Virus record (IMG/VR): IMGVR_UViG_3300048834_000246
Location: 1-64,000 of that record
Length of the DNA: 64,000 nucleotides
Origin: a virus
Strand: one strand, 5' to 3'
Shown here: positions 7,787 through 53,332 of the stretch, piece by piece
How the letters are laid out: each line of letters starts with the position of its first letter
Numbering within the stretch: position 1 is the stretch's first letter
Translations under genes and position numbers: made by a program
The notes under the pieces: model-generated
What the model saw: only the letters and a program-made list of their open reading frames with translations
What the model was told of the DNA's origin: nothing
Databases searched by the model: none

Positions 7787-8091
7787 AATTATACCCAGGA
7801 ATGACGGTAAGCCTGTGGCTTAACGGTTTAGCACCGGTCTTCGGTGGAGATAGTCTTGACCTTAATGAGGTAGATGTGACGTTTGCAATTGCCGATAGTG
7901 AGGATACTATTGTTGTTGCGTCCGGAGTCGCTACCCAAATCGGAGAATCGTTTCGTCGGATTGTGACCCTTCCTAGTTCTCCCGGTAGGTACGTTGTATT
8001 GACTCGGGCTGTGTCCGGAACGTCGGTGTATCGGTCAGCAACAGATATTCGTATCTTACCTGCGGCGGACGAAATCGTAGAAAACCCTTGA
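7783..8091 (+). CDS. Small beta-rich virion-associated protein
   Basis: The ATG overlaps the upstream stop (ATGA). This 102-residue protein has an immunoglobulin-like pattern: VDVTFAIADSEDTIVVASG, RRIVTLPSSPGRYVVLTRAV, then a terminal strand. A protein of similar layout (FELVDRAGTVID and TLTLPNVKGQYSWRAEV) is encoded at 18100-18426, so the phage may carry two related beta-sandwich proteins. The role is unknown; it is probably a virion part. Confidence 0.55.
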   Translation: MKLYPGMTVSLWLNGLAPVFGGDSLDLNEVDVTFAIADSEDTIVVASGVATQIGESFRRIVTLPSSPGRYVVLTRAVSGTSVYRSATDIRILPAADEIVENP

Positions 8092-8116
8092 CAGCAATGG
8101 AATAGGTGTGTATACT
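8088..8116 (+). promoter_or_regulatory. Promoter of the tRNA operon
   Basis: TTGACA (8088-8093), exactly 17 bp, TATACT (8111-8116): a near-consensus strong promoter that overlaps the end of the 7783-8091 gene. It is the only clear promoter before the tRNA array, which runs to the terminator at 12096-12118. Confidence 0.85.
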
Positions 8117-8193
8117 ATGAATGTTGGACGAGGATGTTTCCTCCTTTCTGCCTCGCACAACATGACTCGGGCGGTGGCAAGCCGTCCGATCAC
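8117..8193 (+). ncRNA. Structured leader of the tRNA operon
   Basis: ATGTTG (8121-8126) pairs with CAACAT (8158-8163), enclosing GAGGA/TCCTC and CGAGG/CCTCG pairings. CGGGCGG (8168-8174) then pairs with CCGTCCG (8182-8188, one G-U) over a 7-base loop, just before tRNA-Val. This is probably a processing or leader structure. Confidence 0.5.
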
Positions 8194-8268
8194 AGTCCTT
8201 TCGCCAAGCGGTAAGGCATCGGGTTTACATCCCGACATTCAGAGGTTCGAATCCTCTAAGGACTACCA
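8194..8268 (+). tRNA. tRNA-Val(TAC)
   Basis: The acceptor is AGTCCTT/AAGGACT with discriminator A and encoded CCA. The D arm is GCC/GGC, the anticodon arm TCGGG-TTTACAT-CCCGA and the T arm AGAGG-TTCGAAT-CCTCT. It reads GUA codons. Confidence 0.92.
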
Positions 8269-8437
8269 GCTTTCAGGGTGCTTGCACTCGCCGTAAGATA
8301 TAGGCGCTAAAACTATCTTCTGGTAAAGTTCACCAGGCTGTTCAGTCTGTACGAGACGGCAAGAGCTTACATAGCTTCGAGCCTAGATAGCTAGGCGGTA
8401 CAGAGTTCGTTAGAATTACAAACTCGAAGCTTTTCTT
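8269..8437 (+). ncRNA. Structured tRNA spacer S2
   Basis: No gene or standard tRNA is visible. Stems seen: AAGATA/TATCTT (8295-8300/8314-8319), CTGGT/ACCAG (8320-8324/8332-8336), and AGCTTCGAG/CTCGAAGCT (8373-8381/8423-8431, 9 bp perfect) enclosing CCTAG/CTAGG (8382-8386/8391-8395). The density of perfect stems suggests a folded RNA. Confidence 0.5.
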
Positions 8438-8520
8438 GGGGGTGACAGGTTTGCCTAACAGAAGGGTATAAAAACTTTGCGCTGTTAGAAACTCCGGTTC
8501 GAATCCGGACACTTCCACCA
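8438..8520 (+). tRNA. Aberrant tRNA-like element
   Basis: The acceptor GGGGGTG/CACTTCC (two G-U), discriminator A, CCA and a perfect T arm TCCGG-TTCGAAT-CCGGA are tRNA-like. The middle is not: the D arm is only AGG-TTTG-CCT, and AACAG/CTGTT encloses a 20-base loop with no U33-anticodon pattern. It may be a degenerate tRNA, a tRNA with an insertion, or a tRNA-mimic. No anticodon is assigned. Confidence 0.4.
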
Positions 8521-8573
8521 AGCTCTACAGAGACGAAATAGAGCAAAAATCTAAAAGTCTTAGGAGTAACAAC

Positions 8574-8747
8574 ATGGCTAGACGGAGAAAAGTAACACAG
8601 AAACAGACACAGGAAACTGTAGAAGAAACTGTAGAAGAAATTGTAGAAGAAACTGTAGAAGAAACTGTAGAAGAAACATCGCAGGAGCCTCTTGTAATGA
8701 CCGCGGCGGGTCTTCAACGGATGGGTGCCCAACGTAAAACAACCTAA
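8574..8747 (+). CDS. 57-residue acidic-repeat protein
   Basis: An ATG lies behind TAGGAGTAACAAC. The protein begins with a basic MARRRK segment, then five near-identical four-residue units of the type TVEE (12-bp units ACTGTAGAAGAA) and a short C-terminal tail. The repeat is a low-complexity acidic coiled-coil-like stretch whose unit number could vary by replication slippage. It is embedded in the tRNA operon. The function is unknown. Confidence 0.55.
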   Translation: MARRRKVTQKQTQETVEETVEEIVEETVEETVEETSQEPLVMTAAGLQRMGAQRKTT

Positions 8748-8764
8748 GAATTTTTTATGAAAGG

Positions 8765-8968
8765 ATGTGCGGTATAACGAACGAAGAGCGAATTGCAAAT
8801 TTAGAAACAGCGTTGTACCAAGCGCTATTTGCAATTGGGTACCTTTTAGGGTATAGTTTATCTAAGGCGGAAACCGACGAAGAAAAGCAAACACTTCAAG
8901 AACAAGTTCTCGGTCGGTTTCCCCCCGCAATGCACGATGAAATTATTGCATTGTTAGTATCGGAATAA
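8765..8968 (+). CDS. 67-residue hypothetical protein ending inside tRNA-Pro
   Basis: The ATG at 8765 directly abuts an AAAGG, so the start is uncertain. The protein is helical (NEERIANLETALYQALFAIGYLLGYSL, then an acidic helix). Its last codons and TAA (to 8968) lie within the acceptor stem of tRNA-Pro starting at 8961. It is one of three protein genes in this operon whose stop lies inside the next tRNA or tRNA-like element. The function is unknown. Confidence 0.6.
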   Translation: MCGITNEERIANLETALYQALFAIGYLLGYSLSKAETDEEKQTLQEQVLGRFPPAMHDEIIALLVSE

Positions 8969-9033
8969 GGCCGAACTGGTGAGGCGCGGCGTTTGGGACG
9001 CTGAAATAGTAGGTTCGAGTCCTGCTATTCCGA
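8961..9033 (+). tRNA. tRNA-Pro(TGG)
   Basis: The acceptor is CGGAATA/TATTCCG, D arm GCC/GGC, anticodon arm CGGCG-TTTGGGA-CGCTG and T arm GTAGG-TTCGAGT-CCTGC. It reads CCA. The first 8 bases overlap the upstream ORF. CCA is not encoded. Confidence 0.9.
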
Positions 9034-9037
9034 CCGT

Positions 9038-9125
9038 GGAAAAGTGGCAGAGCGGGTGGTTGCTTTTGTCTTGAAAACAAACGTAGATGACGAATCTACC
9101 GTGGGTTCGAATCCCACCTTTTCCT
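9038..9125 (+). tRNA. tRNA-Ser(TGA)
   Basis: A class II tRNA with acceptor GGAAAAG/CTTTTCC, anticodon arm TTTGT-CTTGAAA-ACAAA, long variable arm (GTAGAT/ATCTAC) and T arm GTGGG-TTCGAAT-CCCAC. It reads UCA. Confidence 0.93.
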
Positions 9126-9130
9126 CTTAT

Positions 9131-9204
9131 TCGGGAGTCGTCCAACGGTAAGACGAGTGACTTTGGATCATTCTATCGGGGTTCGAATCCCTGCTCCCGA
9201 TCCA
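9131..9204 (+). tRNA. tRNA-Gln(TTG)
   Basis: The acceptor is TCGGGAG/CTCCCGA followed by T and encoded CCA. The D arm is GTC/GAC and the anticodon arm AGTGA-CTTTGGA-TCATT. It reads CAA. Confidence 0.9.
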
Positions 9205-9351
9205 AGCCAAGAAAGGGTGACTCCCTTCCTACGAATGCCTAGTCAGCGACCGTAGAGTAGTGTAAAAGGCACGGGCGTTTGAACTGACCCTGAGGTAAAA
9301 AGACTACGACTTGGAAGATGCCAGACTGTAGGGTATTTAATAAGGGTCTTT
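9205..9351 (+). ncRNA. Structured tRNA spacer S4
   Basis: This is a 147-base gap with no ORF or tRNA. Complementary pairs include CCAAG/CTTGG, AAGGG/CCCTT, CTACG/CGTAG, GTCAG/CTGAC and TAGTC/GACTA. Several are mutually exclusive or pseudoknotted. It is probably part of the structured-spacer set. Confidence 0.4.
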
Positions 9352-9429
9352 ATCAGAGTAGTTTCTGTTGGTAGAAATCCTCCGCTGTTAACGGAGAGTG
9401 CGAAGGTTCGATCCCTTCCTCTGGTGCCA
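9352..9429 (+). tRNA. tRNA-Asn(GTT)
   Basis: The acceptor is ATCAGAG/CTCTGGT, discriminator G plus CCA. The D arm is TTTC/GAAA, the anticodon arm CTCCG-CTGTTAA-CGGAG and the T arm GAAGG-TTCGATC-CCTTC. It reads AAC/AAU. Confidence 0.92.
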
Positions 9430-9586
9430 TGTATAGTTTGCGTGATACCATCTATGCAGTTGCCGAGTTGCAGCGGGTAAGTAGACAACCTGCAACAGAT
9501 AGCGATATTATCACTAGGCGCTATCGGTCAGGGGTGGTCCCTGGGTCCGGACACGAGGCCGATTTGGTACAAGTGATCCGGATAAA
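9430..9586 (+). ncRNA. Structured tRNA spacer S5
   Basis: Perfect stems are GTTGCAG/CTGCAAC (9467-9473/9490-9496) and GATAGCG/CGCTATC (9498-9504/9519-9525). CAGGG/CCCTG follows, then TCCGGA motifs. No ORF or standard tRNA is seen. Confidence 0.55.
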
Positions 9587-9587
9587 A

Positions 9588-9658
9588 ATGATGATATAGT
9601 GTAATGGGAGCATAACCGTCTTTATGTCGGTAGGAGAGGTTCGAATCCTCACCATCGT
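9588..9658 (+). tRNA. tRNA-like, predicted anticodon TTA (UAA-reading or decayed)
   Basis: The acceptor ATGATGA/CCATCGT pairs at 6 of 7 positions, and GTG/CAT gives a D stem. The anticodon arm ACCGT-CTTTATG-TCGGT has 4 pairs and a T-T closing mismatch. The T arm is AGAGG-TTCGAAT-CCTCA with 4 pairs. The 7-base loop puts TTA in the anticodon, which would read UAA. The three-base variable loop and U37 are atypical. It could be a suppressor tRNA or a pseudo-tRNA. Confidence 0.4.
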
Positions 9659-9664
9659 TTTCTT

Positions 9665-9748
9665 GGGCTATTGGTGAAAGTGGCATACACGGTTGGCTTA
9701 AAACCAACTTCCTTTACGGGATTGAAGGTTCGAGTCCTTCATGGCCTA
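9665..9748 (+). tRNA. tRNA-Leu(TAA)
   Basis: A class II tRNA with acceptor GGGCTAT/ATGGCCT, anticodon arm GTTGG-CTTAAAA-CCAAC and T arm GAAGG-TTCGAGT-CCTTC. It reads UUA. Confidence 0.93.
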
Positions 9749-9763
9749 CCGAGAAAAAGCTTA

Positions 9764-9844
9764 CGGGGTATGGTGGAATAAGCAGACACGCTATCCTTAG
9801 AAGATAGTGCCTAGAGCGTACAGGTGCAAATCCTGTTACCCTGA
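9764..9844 (+). tRNA. tRNA-Leu(TAG)
   Basis: A class II tRNA with acceptor CGGGGTA/TACCCTG, anticodon arm CTATC-CTTAGAA-GATAG and T arm ACAGG-TGCAAAT-CCTGT. It reads CUA. Confidence 0.92.
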
Positions 9845-9863
9845 CTAGATTTGGAGGGATTTT

Positions 9864-10265
9864 GTGCCGTACGCAGATAGGGCTGTTCAATTAGAATATC
9901 AAAAAAAGTGGATGGAAAAACGCCGAAACGATTATTTTTTGGACAAACGATGTGCGGATTGTGGCTCAAAAGAAAATTTAGAATTAGATCATGTATATAG
10001 ACAAACTAAAATTACTCATAGAATTTGGTCATGGTCCAAACAACGACAAGAAGAAGAACTTGCAAAATGTGTTGCGCGGTGCCATACTTGTCATGTAAAA
10101 AAGACGTTGGATAAAGATTTGCCACGAGCTAAGCACGGAACACGAAGTAAATATAATGCAGGTTGCAGATGTGCTGAGTGTAGAGAAGCTCTGAGAGTAG
10201 ATGTTTCTAAATGGAGAGAACAGAAAAAGACTGAGCGAATGTGTAGCACGAATCTTGTTTCATAA
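9864..10265 (+). CDS. HNH endonuclease, free-standing in the tRNA array
   Basis: This 133-residue protein has a GTG start behind GGAGGGATTTT. The HNH core is visible: a CADCG knuckle (about 30-34), LELDHV (40-45), then KCVARCHTCHVKKT (about 73-86), giving paired CxxC zinc ligands and the H-N/H metal site. A second Cys pair (CRCAEC, about 112-117) follows. Such genes are usually homing endonucleases that spread into intergenic or tRNA-linked sites. The last codons run into a tRNA-like element at 10234-10303. It is related in layout to the HNH gene at 10853. Confidence 0.85.
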   Translation: MPYADRAVQLEYQKKWMEKRRNDYFLDKRCADCGSKENLELDHVYRQTKITHRIWSWSKQRQEEELAKCVARCHTCHVKKTLDKDLPRAKHGTRSKYNAGCRCAECREALRVDVSKWREQKKTERMCSTNLVS

Positions 10266-10303
10266 GCAAGAATTTAAGGGGGCGGCACCCTTATTCGCCA
10301 CCA
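10234..10303 (+). tRNA. tRNA-like element with CAT anticodon
   Basis: AGCGAAT/ATTCGCC pairs at 6 of 7 positions, followed by A and encoded CCA. CTTGT-TTCATAA-GCAAG is a proper anticodon arm with CAT (Met, or Ile2 if lysidinylated). The D arm is reduced to GTG-TAG-CAC. The AAGGG/CCCTT arm carries loop GGCGGCA instead of TTCRANN. It overlaps the 3' end of the HNH gene. It may be a decayed or highly unusual tRNA. Confidence 0.35.
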
Positions 10304-10395
10304 AACTAGAGGATAATCACGACCTGCTCCGAGGATGTATGCATTAAATCCTTGTGACGTACCTCTAGCGGAGACTCTGAATCTCCGGGGTCTTT
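10304..10395 (+). ncRNA. Structured tRNA spacer S6
   Basis: CTAGAGG (10306-10312) pairs with CCTCTAG (10362-10368), enclosing TCAC/GTGA and AGGAT/ATCCT. A separate CGGAGA/TCTCCG hairpin (10369-10374/10382-10387) follows. All four stems can coexist. Confidence 0.55.
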
Positions 10396-10467
10396 ATGAG
10401 TGTAGTTCAACGGAAGAACAGCGGCCTCCAAACCCGCTTGTTGAGGGTTCGAATCCTTCCACTCATG
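10396..10467 (+). tRNA. tRNA-Trp(CCA)
   Basis: The acceptor is ATGAGTG/CACTCAT, D arm GTTC/GAAC, anticodon arm GCGGC-CTCCAAA-CCCGC (one C-C mismatch) and T arm GAGGG-TTCGAAT-CCTTC. It reads UGG. Confidence 0.88.
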
Positions 10468-10568
10468 CCGAAAAGCTAAACTCTTCGGGAGGTCCGTGGT
10501 TTAGGGAAGTCAGGTCGCCCCTGATGGAAGTATGAGCCTATTGCAGCGCCTCATGCGAACGGACATTT
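10468..10568 (+). ncRNA. Structured tRNA spacer S7
   Basis: Stems are CTAAAC/GTTTAG (10476-10481/10499-10504), TCAGG/CCTGA, ATGAG/CTCAT and GTCCG/CGGAC (10492-10496/10560-10564). It shares ATTGC-N9-TGCGAACGG-N-CATTTG with spacer S8, placed directly before tRNA-Asp. Confidence 0.55.
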
Positions 10569-10642
10569 GGTTTTATAGCGCAATTGGATAGCGCCCCGGC
10601 TTGTCACGCCGGTGGGTACGGGTTCGAATCCCGTTAGAACCG
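10569..10642 (+). tRNA. tRNA-Asp(GTC)
   Basis: The acceptor is GGTTTTA/TAGAACC, D arm GCGC/GCGC, anticodon arm CCGGC-TTGTCAC-GCCGG and T arm ACGGG-TTCGAAT-CCCGT. It reads GAC/GAU. Confidence 0.93.
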
Positions 10643-10748
10643 CAGAAGACCCAACAGTGGAACCGTTGGTTGGGTGAGGAAGAGTACGTGGGGTGAGATT
10701 CCCACACCGAAAGGTGCAGATTGCTACTGGCGTGCGAACGGTTCATTT
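10643..10748 (+). ncRNA. Structured tRNA spacer S8
   Basis: Stems are ACCCAAC/GTTGGGT (10649-10655/10669-10675), GTGGG/CCCAC, ACC-GAAA-GGT (10706-10715, GAAA tetraloop) and GAACCGT/ACGGTTC (10660-10666/10738-10744). The 3' part repeats the S7 motif immediately before tRNA-Arg. Confidence 0.55.
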
Positions 10749-10821
10749 GTTCAAGTAGCTCAGCGGATAGAGTCACCGTCTTCTAAGCGGTCGGTCATAG
10801 GTTCGAATCCTATCTTGAACA
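10749..10821 (+). tRNA. tRNA-Arg(TCT)
   Basis: The acceptor is GTTCAAG/CTTGAAC with discriminator A, D arm GCTC/GAGT, anticodon arm ACCGT-CTTCTAA-GCGGT and T arm ATAGG-TTCGAAT-CCTAT. It reads AGA. Confidence 0.93.
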
Positions 10822-10852
10822 CCGTGCGGGATTAGCTAATGAAGGGAGAAAC

Positions 10853-11227
10853 GTGTACTCTAACGAACAAATGAATGAGTATATGAAAAATCGGTGGACG
10901 AAACGACGAGAAACCGCTATACTAAGTTTAGGTGGAGTATGTGTTTCTTGTGGAAGTACTGAAAATTTAGAATTTGACCATATTGATCCTAATACAAAAG
11001 AGTTTACTCTAGCGGCGGGATCAGGATTTTCCGAAGAACGATTCTCTAAAGAATTAGCTAAGTGTCAACTTCTTTGTGTATCGTGCCATAAACTAAAACA
11101 CAGGGCACCCCATGGAACGTTAGCTAGAAAACGAGATTGTAACTGTTCTTTGTGTAAAGAAGCTTGGAATACGTGGAACCGAGAATATAAACGACGTAGA
11201 CGACAAGCAAAAAATATCCCGTTGTAG
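10853..11227 (+). CDS. HNH endonuclease, second copy in the tRNA array
   Basis: This 124-residue protein has a GTG start behind GAAGGGAG. The order of motifs matches the gene at 9864: a CVSCGSTENLEFDHI core (about 30-44), KCQLLCVSCHKLKH (about 70-83) and a terminal CNCSLC pair. Sequence identity is moderate, so the two are diverged paralogues or separate arrivals. The stop codon lies inside tRNA-Lys (11218-11290). It is probably a homing endonuclease. Confidence 0.85.
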   Translation: MYSNEQMNEYMKNRWTKRRETAILSLGGVCVSCGSTENLEFDHIDPNTKEFTLAAGSGFSEERFSKELAKCQLLCVSCHKLKHRAPHGTLARKRDCNCSLCKEAWNTWNREYKRRRRQAKNIPL

Positions 11228-11290
11228 TAGAGTGGCCGCTACACTAGACTTTTAATCTTTGAGACAGAGGTTCGAATCCTCTCAGCGGGA
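11218..11290 (+). tRNA. tRNA-Lys(TTT)
   Basis: The acceptor is CCCGTTG/CAGCGGG with discriminator A, D arm GTAG/CTAC, loop CTTTTAA and T arm AGAGG-TTCGAAT-CCTCT. The anticodon stem CTAGA/TCTTT has only three pairs. It overlaps the last three codons of the HNH gene. It reads AAA. Confidence 0.82.
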
Positions 11291-11301
11291 CTAAATAACT
11301 T

Positions 11302-11375
11302 GGGGAAATCGCCTAACGGAATGGCACCTTCTTTGCAAGAAGGAATAATTGTGGATTCGAATTCCACTTTCTCCA
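11302..11375 (+). tRNA. tRNA-Ala(TGC)
   Basis: The acceptor is GGGGAAA/TTTCTCC, D arm GCC/GGC, anticodon arm CCTTC-TTTGCAA-GAAGG and T arm GTGGA-TTCGAAT-TCCAC. It reads GCA. Confidence 0.9.
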
Positions 11376-11516
11376 CCGGGCGCAACCTGCCGAAAGTGGT
11401 TGGCTTAGGGTAGTTGGCTGCAATTACCTACGCTCTATATCATAACGAGGCGTCAAATTACCCACGCCTACCGGGATTCCGGGCATATAGAGGGGGAATA
11501 GATACAAGGAGAGATT
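11376..11516 (+). ncRNA. Structured tRNA spacer S9 (three-way junction)
   Basis: GTAGTTG-GCTG-CAATTAC (11410-11427) forms one hairpin. CTCTATAT (11433-11440) pairs with ATATAGAG (11485-11492), closing a junction that holds AGGCGT/ACGCCT (11448-11453/11464-11469) and CCGG-GATT-CCGG (11471-11482). All stems are perfect and mutually compatible. Confidence 0.65.
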
Positions 11517-11762
11517 GTGCAACCTGAACCTACCATAACAATTGTTAGTGGAAGTGATTGGACTCAGTTATATGTTAATGATGACTGTGTTGAAGAAAAT
11601 CATAGCATTAGTTTAACTCACGGTTTAGATGCGTTGGATATTCCCTACCAAACTATTTCTGTCGATGACGATAGTGTTATGGAAGAAATTTCCGGGTATA
11701 ATTATTCTCTTCGTAAAGTAAAAGATATTATTGAAAACTCAGGACAACTACCGTTGTTCTAA
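11517..11762 (+). CDS. 81-residue hypothetical protein
   Basis: A GTG start lies behind AAGGAGAG. The protein is acidic, with alternating strand and helix patterns (TITIVSGSDWTQLYVN, then a DIPYQTISVDDDSV region and a terminal helix). No known motif is recognised. It lies between the spacer S9 structure and tRNA-His, ending six bases before that tRNA, so it is cotranscribed with the tRNAs. Confidence 0.6.
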   Translation: MQPEPTITIVSGSDWTQLYVNDDCVEENHSISLTHGLDALDIPYQTISVDDDSVMEEISGYNYSLRKVKDIIENSGQLPLF

Positions 11763-11767
11763 AATAT

Positions 11768-11840
11768 GGTGTTCATGGCCGAGCGGATTAGGCACACGTC
11801 TGTGGAACGTGGTAGGTGGGTTCAATTCCCACTGAGTACC
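11768..11840 (+). tRNA. tRNA-His(GTG)
   Basis: The acceptor is GTGTTCA/TGAGTAC with the diagnostic extra G-1 opposite C73. The D arm is GCC/GGC, the anticodon arm CACGT-CTGTGGA-ACGTG and the T arm GTGGG-TTCAATT-CCCAC. It reads CAC/CAU. Confidence 0.93.
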
Positions 11841-11855
11841 CCCAAAAGTATCTAT

Positions 11856-11927
11856 GTCCGTATGGTGAAAAGCATATCACCAATGTCTTCGAAACATTAG
11901 TTGTGGGTTGGATTCCTACTACGGACA
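11856..11927 (+). tRNA. tRNA-Arg(TCG)
   Basis: The acceptor is GTCCGTA/TACGGAC, D arm GTGA/TCAC, anticodon arm AATGT-CTTCGAA-ACATT and T arm GTGGG-TTGGATT-CCTAC (loop slightly unusual). It reads CGA, a codon used often in these genes. Confidence 0.9.
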
Positions 11928-11932
11928 CTAAT

Positions 11933-12007
11933 GCGCTAGTCGTATAACGGCTATTACCGCAGTTTTCCAAACTGCCGATCAGAGTTCGATTCTCTGCTGG
12001 CGCTCCA
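11933..12007 (+). tRNA. tRNA-Gly(TCC)
   Basis: The acceptor is GCGCTAG/CTGGCGC followed by T and encoded CCA. The D arm is GTA/TAC, the anticodon arm GCAGT-TTTCCAA-ACTGC and the T arm CAGAG-TTCGATT-CTCTG. It reads GGA. Confidence 0.92.
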
Positions 12008-12008
12008 C

Positions 12009-12086
12009 GCATCCTTAGCTCAGACTGGTCAGAGCGGCTATCTTGTAAATAGCGGGTCAAGTGTTCGAATCACTTAGGATGCTCCA
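12009..12086 (+). tRNA. tRNA-Thr(TGT)
   Basis: The acceptor is GCATCCT/AGGATGC followed by T and encoded CCA. The D arm is GCTC/GAGC, the anticodon arm GCTAT-CTTGTAA-ATAGC and the T arm AAGTG-TTCGAAT-CACTT. It reads ACA. It is the last tRNA of the operon. Confidence 0.93.
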
Positions 12087-12089
12087 ATA

Positions 12090-12120
12090 AAAAAAGAAGC
12101 CCTCGGGCTTCTTTTTTTTA
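12090..12120. terminator. Bidirectional terminator between tRNA operon and HNH gene
   Basis: GAAGCCC (12096-12102), TC loop, GGGCTTC (12105-12111) with T8 on the right and A-run on the left. It ends the rightward tRNA operon and can also end the leftward transcripts from 16621. Confidence 0.9.
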
Positions 12121-50591: not shown

Positions 50592-50620
50592 AGTATACAC
50601 ACAAGTCTTCTACTTGTCAA
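50592..50620 (-). promoter_or_regulatory. Leftward promoter before 50565
   Basis: Minus strand TTGACA (50620-50615), 17 bp, TATACT (50597-50592). It is a member of the repeated leftward promoter set. Confidence 0.85.
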
Positions 50621-53028
50621 GGGTTTTCTCTAAGCGTTTCAAGAAGTGCGCGTCGAATGTTTGTGTCTCGGAATGCTAGAGCTTTATTCACAGCGGTATC
50701 AATACTATCTTTTGCAAGGACATTGATAACACGAACGCGTGACGTTTGACCAGCACGCCTGGCTCGGGCGATAGCCTGTTGAATGGTACTCGGTAGGTAA
50801 TCCTGTTCCGCGAACAGTAACAAGCTGCTGTGCTGCAAGTTCACGCCTTCGGTGAGGGATGCTAACGTAGCAACAATAATTCCATTATCCCTCGTTTTCC
50901 ACTCTTCAACAAGTCGGTTACGCTCGGTTGTTGCCATACCGCCACGAATTTCGTACACAGGTCGGTCATCGTTTTTCTCACGCAAATGACGTGCAATCAT
51001 CTGGCACGTTCCTCTGAACCACGTAAACACAATTGCAGGTTCTAGTTCGTGGTCATCCAGGTATTCGGAGATAATAGAAACCTTTGGATTTTCTTTTAAC
51101 TCTCCTACAATCGCACCGTCTTCAACCACAAACCCCGCTGTAAGCTGCCTAAGCTTTGCTACCAGGGCACCTCCGCTACTAATAGCTACAGGATCGTCCA
51201 AATCAGGATGCTCAATAAACCACTCCTTCTTAGCAGTATCATGTGCTTTTCTCATGCTCGGCGGCATATCGAATACATGATTTGTTTCTAATGGAAGATC
51301 AGTCCACGCAGGAATAACCCCCGTGCGGTTGAATTCTTCGTTGATAACTGTTTCATAGTTACGACGCAACATATAGTTGTTAAGCATATCTGCAAACGCT
51401 ACTTCAAGGTCAGGATTAACACCCTTAATAATCGTTGTCCACGGTGTCGTTTCCGTTTCACACCAAGTGCCAACAAATTTCCAGTACGAAGAAAACTTCA
51501 CCCGGTCGATGATACGAAGTAACGGCCACAAATCTCCTGGGTTGTTGACGATAGGGGTACCCGTAAGCATCCAAAAGTAGTCGGACTTTATCTTCAATAT
51601 GTTCTTTGTCCACTGACTCTTTCTTCCTCGAAGACGGTGGGATTCATCAGCGATAACCGCTCCCCACGCATAGGTAAGAAGTTCAGGGTGTTTCTTCATG
51701 CCTTCGTTCATAAACATATGATAGTTGACAATAACCCACCCTGTAAACTCTTTCGGAACCGGCGCATCTTTCCTGGCGACAATCATCCACGGAACATCCG
51801 GAGAATAGGCAGAGATAACAGTGCCCCACTGTTCCAAAAGATACGGTGGGGCAATAATGAGTTTTCTTTTGTTACTGGCTATATCATTCCCCGCGCTTAC
51901 CGCCGGGAAGGAATTGTGTGTAACGATAAAATCATTGGTAACGTATAGATGATCTTTAGCATCAACAGAAATACATTGAGCTTTTTTAGTTCCAACAAAC
52001 TCAATCCCAGAAACTTTTCTCATAGGAAAATACTTTGTTCGAGGTGAGTATTGACATAATTTTTCGTAAACAAGAAAAGGCTGTATCGTATTAGGAAGTG
52101 AAGGAATAACCCGATATGACGGTAATCCCTGCTTGCGCTCACCCTTGTAGGTAAACCACGAATTAGTTCGCGGGGTTACTCGTGCAACACCCCCAAGACT
52201 TTGAATCAAAAAAACAACCCCCTCGGATAGTTTCTTCGATGTTGTTGAATATTCAATTGTAGAATTACCTACAACACTACCATCGCTATCCAATAACCCT
52301 TGGAGTAACGAGACTCGACTATTTACCGAATTTAGAAGAAGTTCTTCGGGAATAAATTTATCATAGGAGTGTTTCTCAGACAAACCAATTGAACGAATAT
52401 ACTCTAGCAATATATTTACAGACACGCCTTTTTTTCGTCTAATTGTATAGTCATAAGAGTTATTTTTGTTTAGTTCCAAAGTGTTTGGCAAACGTTCAAC
52501 GATCATGTCCCGCACAGTATCGTTGGGTACTGACACCGACACTCTTTTTCGGCCAAAATGACCGTTTCCTAAAAGGTACCCCATAACCCACGGGTCAATT
52601 ACAGTTCGCTTTTCCGTAAACTGTACTGGATCAACCAGAGGTACTTGAATGTTTTGAGGAATTAGTGCAGCAAGATCGGTTGTTTTTACAATACGGCTAC
52701 ATTTTCCGTCTCTACGCATAGTCTTTGTTGTAACAGACCATAGATGGTCCGCGTCACATTCTGTATGCGTTCCATCATTGAATAACACGCGGAAAACAGG
52801 TCTTTCCCCTTGTGGGTAAACACCAGTAACTGTTGTTGGGTAGCCGTTTTTTCCAATTACTACTGTTCCAACCTTAACATTCTCCATACGAGTATAACCG
52901 GTAGGAGTAAGCACAAGAGCGTCTAATCCTTGTGCTTTCCCCATCCCCGGCTCGTCTGCAAGAATGCTTGAAGGATGTTTCAGAAGAAACTCTCTCGCCT
53001 CCTTCTGATAGTCCCACAACGTAATCAT
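50617..53028 (-). CDS. SNF2/DEAD-type helicase split by an intein
   Basis: I place the start at ATG 53028 behind AAAGGATTAAC, giving about 803 residues with the intein. Extein motifs: LWDYQKEAREFLLKHPSSILADEPGMGK-SFPA (Q motif and Walker A, interrupted), VIADESHRLRGR (DESH box), LTGTPIVNN (motif III), VFTWFRG, and VATLASLTEGVNLQ with IQQAIARARRAGQ (motifs V-VI). The spliced protein would be about 462 residues. It should act in phage DNA replication or recombination. The intein separates K and S of the P-loop. Confidence 0.9.
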   Translation of the reverse strand: MITLWDYQKEAREFLLKHPSSILADEPGMGKAQGLDALVLTPTGYTRMENVKVGTVVIGKNGYPTTVTGVYPQGERPVFRVLFNDGTHTECDADHLWSVTTKTMRRDGKCSRIVKTTDLAALIPQNIQVPLVDPVQFTEKRTVIDPWVMGYLLGNGHFGRKRVSVSVPNDTVRDMIVERLPNTLELNKNNSYDYTIRRKKGVSVNILLEYIRSIGLSEKHSYDKFIPEELLLNSVNSRVSLLQGLLDSDGSVVGNSTIEYSTTSKKLSEGVVFLIQSLGGVARVTPRTNSWFTYKGERKQGLPSYRVIPSLPNTIQPFLVYEKLCQYSPRTKYFPMRKVSGIEFVGTKKAQCISVDAKDHLYVTNDFIVTHNSFPAVSAGNDIASNKRKLIIAPPYLLEQWGTVISAYSPDVPWMIVARKDAPVPKEFTGWVIVNYHMFMNEGMKKHPELLTYAWGAVIADESHRLRGRKSQWTKNILKIKSDYFWMLTGTPIVNNPGDLWPLLRIIDRVKFSSYWKFVGTWCETETTPWTTIIKGVNPDLEVAFADMLNNYMLRRNYETVINEEFNRTGVIPAWTDLPLETNHVFDMPPSMRKAHDTAKKEWFIEHPDLDDPVAISSGGALVAKLRQLTAGFVVEDGAIVGELKENPKVSIISEYLDDHELEPAIVFTWFRGTCQMIARHLREKNDDRPVYEIRGGMATTERNRLVEEWKTRDNGIIVATLASLTEGVNLQHSSLLLFAEQDYLPSTIQQAIARARRAGQTSRVRVINVLAKDSIDTAVNKALAFRDTNIRRALLETLRENP
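51913..52935 (-). mobile_element. Intein with LAGLIDADG endonuclease in the helicase P-loop
   Basis: The 341-residue insert starts AQGLDALVLTPTG (splicing block A, Ala at position 1) and ends VTNDFIVTHN followed by extein Ser (block G, HN-S). Blocks with WVMGYLLGNGHFG and LLQGLLDSDGSV are LAGLIDADG helices, so the homing endonuclease looks intact. Ala1 implies a class that splices without a first-residue Cys/Ser. Insertion is exactly inside GMGK-S. Confidence 0.92.
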
Positions 53029-53029
53029 G

Positions 53030-53332
53030 TTAATCCTTTCGAAAACGAAGAAACAACAGGAATCTATTCCAGGTACGACGATACCACCAATACGGTTCGT
53101 GGTCGAATTGCACACCTTGAATCAACGACTCTACAATTGAGTCATAAGGAATATGCCTCCCGCTTTTCTCGTAAATTTTCGCTGCGTATTCCGTTAACGC
53201 AATGGCATTTGCAACCTTTCGCACATCCATTGTGCCGTGTTCAATTGCCAAATGCAACATATCTAGGTCGCTATATTTTTGCTGGTATGGATTTGACTCG
53301 TCATTGAGCCAACGCTCAATGACATTTACCAT
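53030..53332 (-). CDS. 100-residue hypothetical protein
   Basis: A helical protein with an aromatic, basic C-terminus (WWYRRTWNRFLLFLRFRKD). It starts behind AGGAATGAAC and ends two bases before the helicase start. The centre (DMLHLAIEHGTMDVRKVANAIALTEYAAKIYE) is helical. The function is unknown. Confidence 0.6.
   Translation of the reverse strand: MVNVIERWLNDESNPYQQKYSDLDMLHLAIEHGTMDVRKVANAIALTEYAAKIYEKSGRHIPYDSIVESLIQGVQFDHEPYWWYRRTWNRFLLFLRFRKD

Follow-up and report, generated by a model that had tools for sequence, protein, structure and literature searches.

The window analysed here is a 64,000-nt stretch of the 67,968-base virus record IMGVR_UViG_3300048834_000246, whose proteins include the tailed-phage markers terminase, portal, primase, family A DNA polymerase and thymidylate synthase, and the subject of this analysis is its tRNA operon at positions 8088-12118, in particular the spacers that lie between the tRNAs. 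The operon opens with a sigma-70-type promoter (8088..8116; TTGACA-17 nt-TATACT) that agrees with the consensus at 11 of 12 positions, continues with tRNA-Val(tac) (8194..8268; ARAGORN) as its first tRNA and closes with an intrinsic terminator (12089..12118), and a total of 17 tRNAs is called by ARAGORN between these signals. An earlier note, made from the letters of the window alone, had proposed such an operon, and its presence is confirmed. Many adjacent tRNAs of the array are separated by gaps of just 1-5 nt. The structured spacers, which lie on the plus strand like the promoter, tRNA-Val(tac), the terminator and the tmRNA-like domain, divergent tRNA-Met and two HNH frames described below, are S1 (8269..8437), S4 (9205..9351), S5b (10306..10395), S6 (10470..10568), S7 (10644..10748) and S8 (11378..11497). 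The spacers begin directly after tRNA 3' ends and stop about 4-9 nt short of the next tRNA.

A primase search retrieved three contigs (73% identity), of which two are nearly identical in the region (phage A; L009/L011/L051) and the third is separate (phage B; L010/L052), and the tRNA arrays of A and B contain gaps of the type seen in the window. All-against-all alignment of the gaps yielded families shared between phages, namely the Lys-Gly RNA of A and B, the Leu-Phe RNA of A and B (z 19), S1 of the window and of A (z 13) and the tails of the A and B arrays (z 9), with weaker links between S6 and the A tail and between S8 and the Gly-Thr gap of B. Two further phage contigs, C and D, are compared below. 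Relatives sought by a 1095-aa protein were not found, nothing comparable to this tRNA array is present in terminase relatives (40-53% identity) except in one contig of a metagenome-assembled genome (L215) with 7 tRNAs, and blastn with six spacer queries against 50,697 phage records gave no match. A scan of the spacers with Rfam likewise gave no match above cut-offs except tRNA.

The S1 RNA is homologous to positions 9983-10138 of A (L051; Smith-Waterman z 13). The blocks GGCTGTTC, GAGACGGCAAG and GCTTCG are conserved between the two copies, and the helix AGCTTCGAG/CTCGAAGCT of the window becomes ACGCTTCGG/CCGAAGCGT in A. A pattern search of IMG/VR with S1 returned only the relative already known, the remaining hits being chance matches in coding DNA. 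S8 consists of two hairpins (11382-11431) followed by a three-way junction (11433-11492) that the earlier note had singled out and that folds with a z of -2.58, 2 of 200 shuffles being equally good. The first hairpin (GCAACCTG..AGTGGTTGG) occurs twice in the tRNA gaps of phage C, and one of these copies is also accompanied by the second hairpin (z 10.1 and 9.3; E 8e-5). The 13 named pairs are all formed in the window as well as in C, two of them changed on both sides, and the pairing is lost on sliding the register, although pair counts this high are reached by 116 of 500 shuffles and, taken alone, are not beyond chance. From phage to phage the helices vary, whereas loops such as GGAAAGACGG and GCAACCTG..AGTGGTTGG are retained.

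A 3'-terminal pseudoknot is common to S6 and S7; it is formed by CTAAACT/GGTTTAG and GTCCGT/ACGGAC in S6 and by ACCCAAC/GTTGGGT and GAACCGTT/AACGGTTC in S7. Both follow the same strand order, in which strands a and b are succeeded by a' adjoining b and then by b' at the extreme end, with the next tRNA 4 nt on, and S7 is likely a paralogue of S6. The same arrangement is found in the A tail (p 0.009), with which S6 was aligned, in the B tail (p 0.02) and in the Gly-Thr gap of B; among the 13 remaining spacers it occurs only in S1 of the window, at chance level. In three of four RNAs of this type the last stem ends 4-5 nt ahead of a tRNA or of the terminator region. A pattern search for S6 and S7 gave 18 hits, none of them inside a tRNA array.

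Covariation is best seen in the Leu-Phe RNA, in which 5 of 19 named pairs differ between A and B by compensatory changes on both sides, in register and without gaps (13 of 500 shuffles); RNAalifold counts 8 such pairs among 29. A pattern derived from this RNA locates it again among the tRNAs of C (L250, 127,895 bases) at 109.8 bits and E 4.9e-27. Its core motif is also present in the tRNA-Val/tRNA-Arg gap of D (L247, 95,720 bases), where the RNA probably recurs. The hexamer of one hairpin loop of the Leu-Phe RNA is palindromic in both variants, ATGCAT (L051 13432-13437) and CTATAG (L052 876-881); such loops could form loop-kissing dimers, which, with two independent sequences only, is not claimed. 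Phage C, with about 40 tRNAs, also contains an RNA homologous to that of the B Gly-Thr gap (z 16.8) and a repeated family opening GCCG....TAAT..GTTATC that shows five both-side changes (4 of 500 shuffles). A pseudoknot of the family at B 2573-2666 was considered as a feature kept in C and was not accepted, as its third loop would be 1 nt.

The placement of these RNAs differs from phage to phage. S1 stands upstream of a tmRNA-like domain in the window and downstream of it in A, RNAs of the S6/S7 type lie between tRNAs in the window and past the last tRNA in A and B, and the S8 element follows tRNA-Ala in the window and precedes tRNA-Thr in C. The same RNA thus occurs beside different tRNAs and in a different order in each phage, and for this reason the spacers are better described as independent cassettes than as one large interrupted RNA. 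The suggestion of the earlier note that the gaps may hold novel structured RNAs is supported, since homologues in other phages retain the fold via compensatory changes and no Rfam family matches.

How strongly do the spacers fold when taken by themselves? The six spacers of the window (80-170 nt) were compared with dinucleotide shuffles, with coding DNA and tRNAs of the same phage as controls. The mean folding z is -1.33 for the six spacers (Stouffer -3.3), -0.35 for coding DNA and -1.76 for tRNAs. S5b (z -2.6; z -2.3 on 10307-10387), which contains the CTAGAGG/CCTCTAG stem and a hairpin, and S8 (z -2.0) are clearly folded, S7 has a z of -1.0, and the energies of S6 (z -0.2) and S4 (z -0.8) are at shuffle level. 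Local H-type pseudoknot potential, scored over all spacers, showed no excess over shuffles, and an H-type pseudoknot that by eye had seemed to open every spacer was rejected on the same grounds. Folding energy alone therefore backs the earlier note only in part, because S5b and S8 are clear whereas S6 and S4 are not and the pseudoknot search equals shuffles. The 7-bp stems that it had named are present (CTAGAGG/CCTCTAG in S5, GTATGAG/CTCATGC in S6 and GGTAGTT/AATTACC in S8), and its claim of a high stem density, taken as density above chance, holds for the six spacers as a group but not individually for S6, S4 and S7, with coding DNA as the control in a genome that has little intergenic DNA. 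Overall, then, covariation is found and energies lie below shuffle level, while the energies of single spacers do reach that level.

We hypothesize that each structured spacer is a small non-coding RNA gene of its own, or cassette, in one tRNA operon, that these RNAs are released by tRNA processing and that they most likely act in trans, and we assign this a probability of roughly 0.6. Beyond the operon signals, the homologues, the covarying helices and the shuffled order, which are observed directly, we infer the release through tRNA processing, the stability of the products and their action in trans. One operon transcript would span 8088 to 12118. In ordinary tRNA processing RNase P cuts at tRNA 5' ends, and such processing would release the spacers because they adjoin the 3' end of one tRNA and stop 4-9 nt ahead of the next; RNase P at the 5' end of the following tRNA, together with the tRNA 3'-end enzymes, would free each spacer as an RNA of about 80-170 nt. 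The pseudoknot of S6 and S7, 4 nt from the future 3' end, would hinder 3' exonucleases and so allow the RNA to accumulate. The freed RNAs would most likely be stable phage RNAs that work in trans in infection, possibly on translation or host defence, as RNA C and RNA D of bacteriophage T4 may do, and the cassettes would move among positions and phages along with tRNA genes in arrays rich in HNH endonucleases.

Several results weigh against this hypothesis. The Leu-Phe RNA, the best case of covariation, is not present in the window, covariation in general is based on 2-3 distinct sequences per family, and in S8 the pair counts are within reach of shuffles. Energies of S6 and S4 do not depart from those of shuffles, and homologues of S4 and S5b were looked for and none was found. 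Moreover, S6 and S7 were already known when the pseudoknot architecture was defined, so that their p-values (0.04 and 0.002, respectively) are post hoc. A covariance model of the A and B tails, which does not include the pseudoknot, found neither S6 nor S7 and matched nothing in the window; because of this, the link between S6/S7 and the tails rests on the architecture and a weak alignment (p 0.007).

Not every gap is a structured spacer, and here the picture drawn by the earlier note has to be corrected for 8438-8520, 10234-10303, 9429-9599 and 8574-8747. The first of these (8438..8520) is a tRNA-like domain resembling transfer-messenger RNA (tmRNA; RF00023, 37.7 bits, E 9.5e-13, the gathering score of 47 not being reached). 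It matches both ends of tmRNA and lacks the tag reading frame, the internal region and the pseudoknots. A counterpart in A (L051 9895-9983) scores 46.4 bits with RF00023, the alanine identity pair G3.U70 is kept in both (the acceptor in the window being GGGGGTG/CACTTCC), and S1 adjoins the domain in both phages, on opposite sides. These domains thus resemble tmRNA in their tRNA-like domain, 5' and 3' ends and G3.U70 pair, and differ from it in their length of about 83-89 nt, in having no tag frame or pseudoknots and in falling short of the gathering score. The second (10234..10303), the first part of what the earlier note called S5, is a divergent tRNA-Met(CAT) recognised from a minimum-free-energy cloverleaf and an anticodon arm as in the tRNA-Met of A; it was missed by ARAGORN and by Rfam, and a presumed pseudoknot of S5 turned out to be its T arm. 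It overlaps the stop of a putative HNH endonuclease open reading frame (9864..10265), identified from its Cys/His pattern and its similarity to the HNH endonuclease at 10853..11227 (PF01844) and without a Pfam match of its own. Small open reading frames account for 9429-9599 and 8574-8747.

ARAGORN also reports two UUA (ochre suppressor) tRNAs (9588-9659 and 11218-11291; anticodon tta). A UAA-suppressor reading of these tRNAs is doubtful, since TAA is the stop in 36 of 51 genes and the loop CTTTTAA of the tRNA at 11218 fits Lys-UUU; the latter is more likely a tRNA-Lys(UUU) with a weak anticodon stem. Unusual tRNAs occur in the other phages as well. At L051 9253-9838 in A, a tRNA anticodon loop is split by a complete tRNA-Val and an HNH gene, and the strands bordering the insert have 8 nt of complementarity (CGGTACTG/CAGTACCG). 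In the tRNA at L051 8465-8563, CCGTG and CACGG enclose an anticodon loop about 27 nt long, and a gap of phage C (L256 8817-8954; G005 99816-99953) holds a tRNA-like 3' half with a T arm followed by a stretch resembling a 5' half, possibly a permuted or broken tRNA. Elsewhere in the window, a SNF2-type helicase (50617-53115) carries a LAGLIDADG/Hom_end insertion, an intein-like homing element.

Do the spacers act only where they stand? They might be cis-acting insulators or processing signals that keep neighbouring tRNAs from misfolding, make the RNase P site accessible and stop exonucleases, and that have no role after release. Their position between a tRNA 3' end and a point shortly before the next tRNA fits this explanation, as does the closing of the last stem 4-5 nt before a tRNA or the terminator region in three of the four S6/S7-type RNAs. 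However, many neighbouring tRNAs manage with spacers of 1-5 nt, an insulator needs no loops such as GGAAAGACGG and GCAACCTG..AGTGGTTGG that are kept across phages as the helices change, and the tail RNA in A and B stands ahead of a terminator rather than a tRNA. We consider a purely cis-acting role unlikely, though deserving of serious attention; service as tRNA processing signals, which the earlier note had also raised, is possible as a secondary role of the spacers. The pseudoknots and the start at tRNA 3' ends are reminiscent of the hepatitis delta virus (HDV)-like theta ribozymes, which in phage genomes begin where a tRNA ends (PMC10879173), and the spacers could be self-cleaving ribozymes that trim tRNA ends. 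Yet when 43 spacers were scanned with a nested-HDV descriptor at the cleavage position, 5 weak hits resulted, a single one of which falls in the window (S6, where 4 of 100 shuffles also match), and the nested double pseudoknot P1-P2-P3 of theta ribozymes at the tRNA 3' end is not above shuffle level in the window spacers. The pseudoknot of S6 and S7 has no hairpin between its second and third strands (no P3) and is therefore a different fold, and Rfam gives no HDV, twister, hammerhead or pistol match, such that a ribozyme is improbable.

Alternatively, the spacers might be decayed tRNAs and debris of homing elements whose stems arose by chance. Odd tRNAs do occupy two spacers (8438-8520 and 10234-10303), the arrays are dotted with HNH genes and the folding of several spacers is at shuffle level, but S8, S1 and the sister families show compensatory changes and loops that are strongly conserved, which leaves this explanation with little likelihood. 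The earlier note had further raised the idea of a single large, ornate RNA broken up by tRNAs, as in GOLLD and ROOL, which are structured phage RNAs with pseudoknots, of unknown function, near tRNA islands; tRNAs can even occupy the GOLLD linker (PMC12286853). The spacers share structure, pseudoknots and tRNA-island location with these RNAs. GOLLD and ROOL, however, are larger single RNAs (GOLLD often >800 nt), whereas the modules here are independent, 60-170 nt in length and without fixed order in the window, A, B and C. In A, B, C and D, and so in phages both related and unrelated, they occur singly or in 1-2 copies, reordered and with other tRNAs as neighbours, and neither the GOLLD and ROOL covariance models nor any other large phage RNA of Rfam matches a spacer. 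We thus regard a single interrupted RNA as highly improbable, and that part of the earlier note is not supported.

With independent small RNA genes as the preferred reading, the nearest known case is that of bacteriophage T4, whose tRNA cluster contains the small stable non-coding RNAs RNA C and RNA D (rnaC and rnaD, or species 1 and 2; 139 and 119 nt) adjoining tRNA-Arg and a homing endonuclease gene. These RNAs are expressed late and their function is unknown (PMC9697503). The spacers of the window, non-tRNA stretches of 80-170 nt within a phage tRNA operon, match this class, whose non-tRNA RNAs are about 100-170 nt long, in size and setting, and by analogy their RNAs would be similar in kind and drawn from many exchangeable families. 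Blastn of the spacers against the T4 cluster (L055) gave no match, and T4 has two such RNAs whereas the arrays described here have at least six, belonging to several families found in more than one phage.

Descriptions of phage tRNA clusters usually stop at a list of the tRNAs and pass over the gaps. A broader hypothesis, which we advance tentatively and at slightly less than even odds, is that phage tRNA arrays hold a whole repertoire, as yet undescribed, of small structured non-coding RNAs in exchangeable families, at least five of them seen here, which act in trans during infection and for which tRNA processing serves as a general release system. If conserved RNA genes are common in such gaps, as in T4 and the five genomes compared, tRNA finders and Rfam would have overlooked a class of phage RNA. 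The modules shared between phages allow for testable covariance models, and they would offer an entry to the question left by T4 RNA C and RNA D, namely the role of the stable non-tRNA products of tRNA operons.

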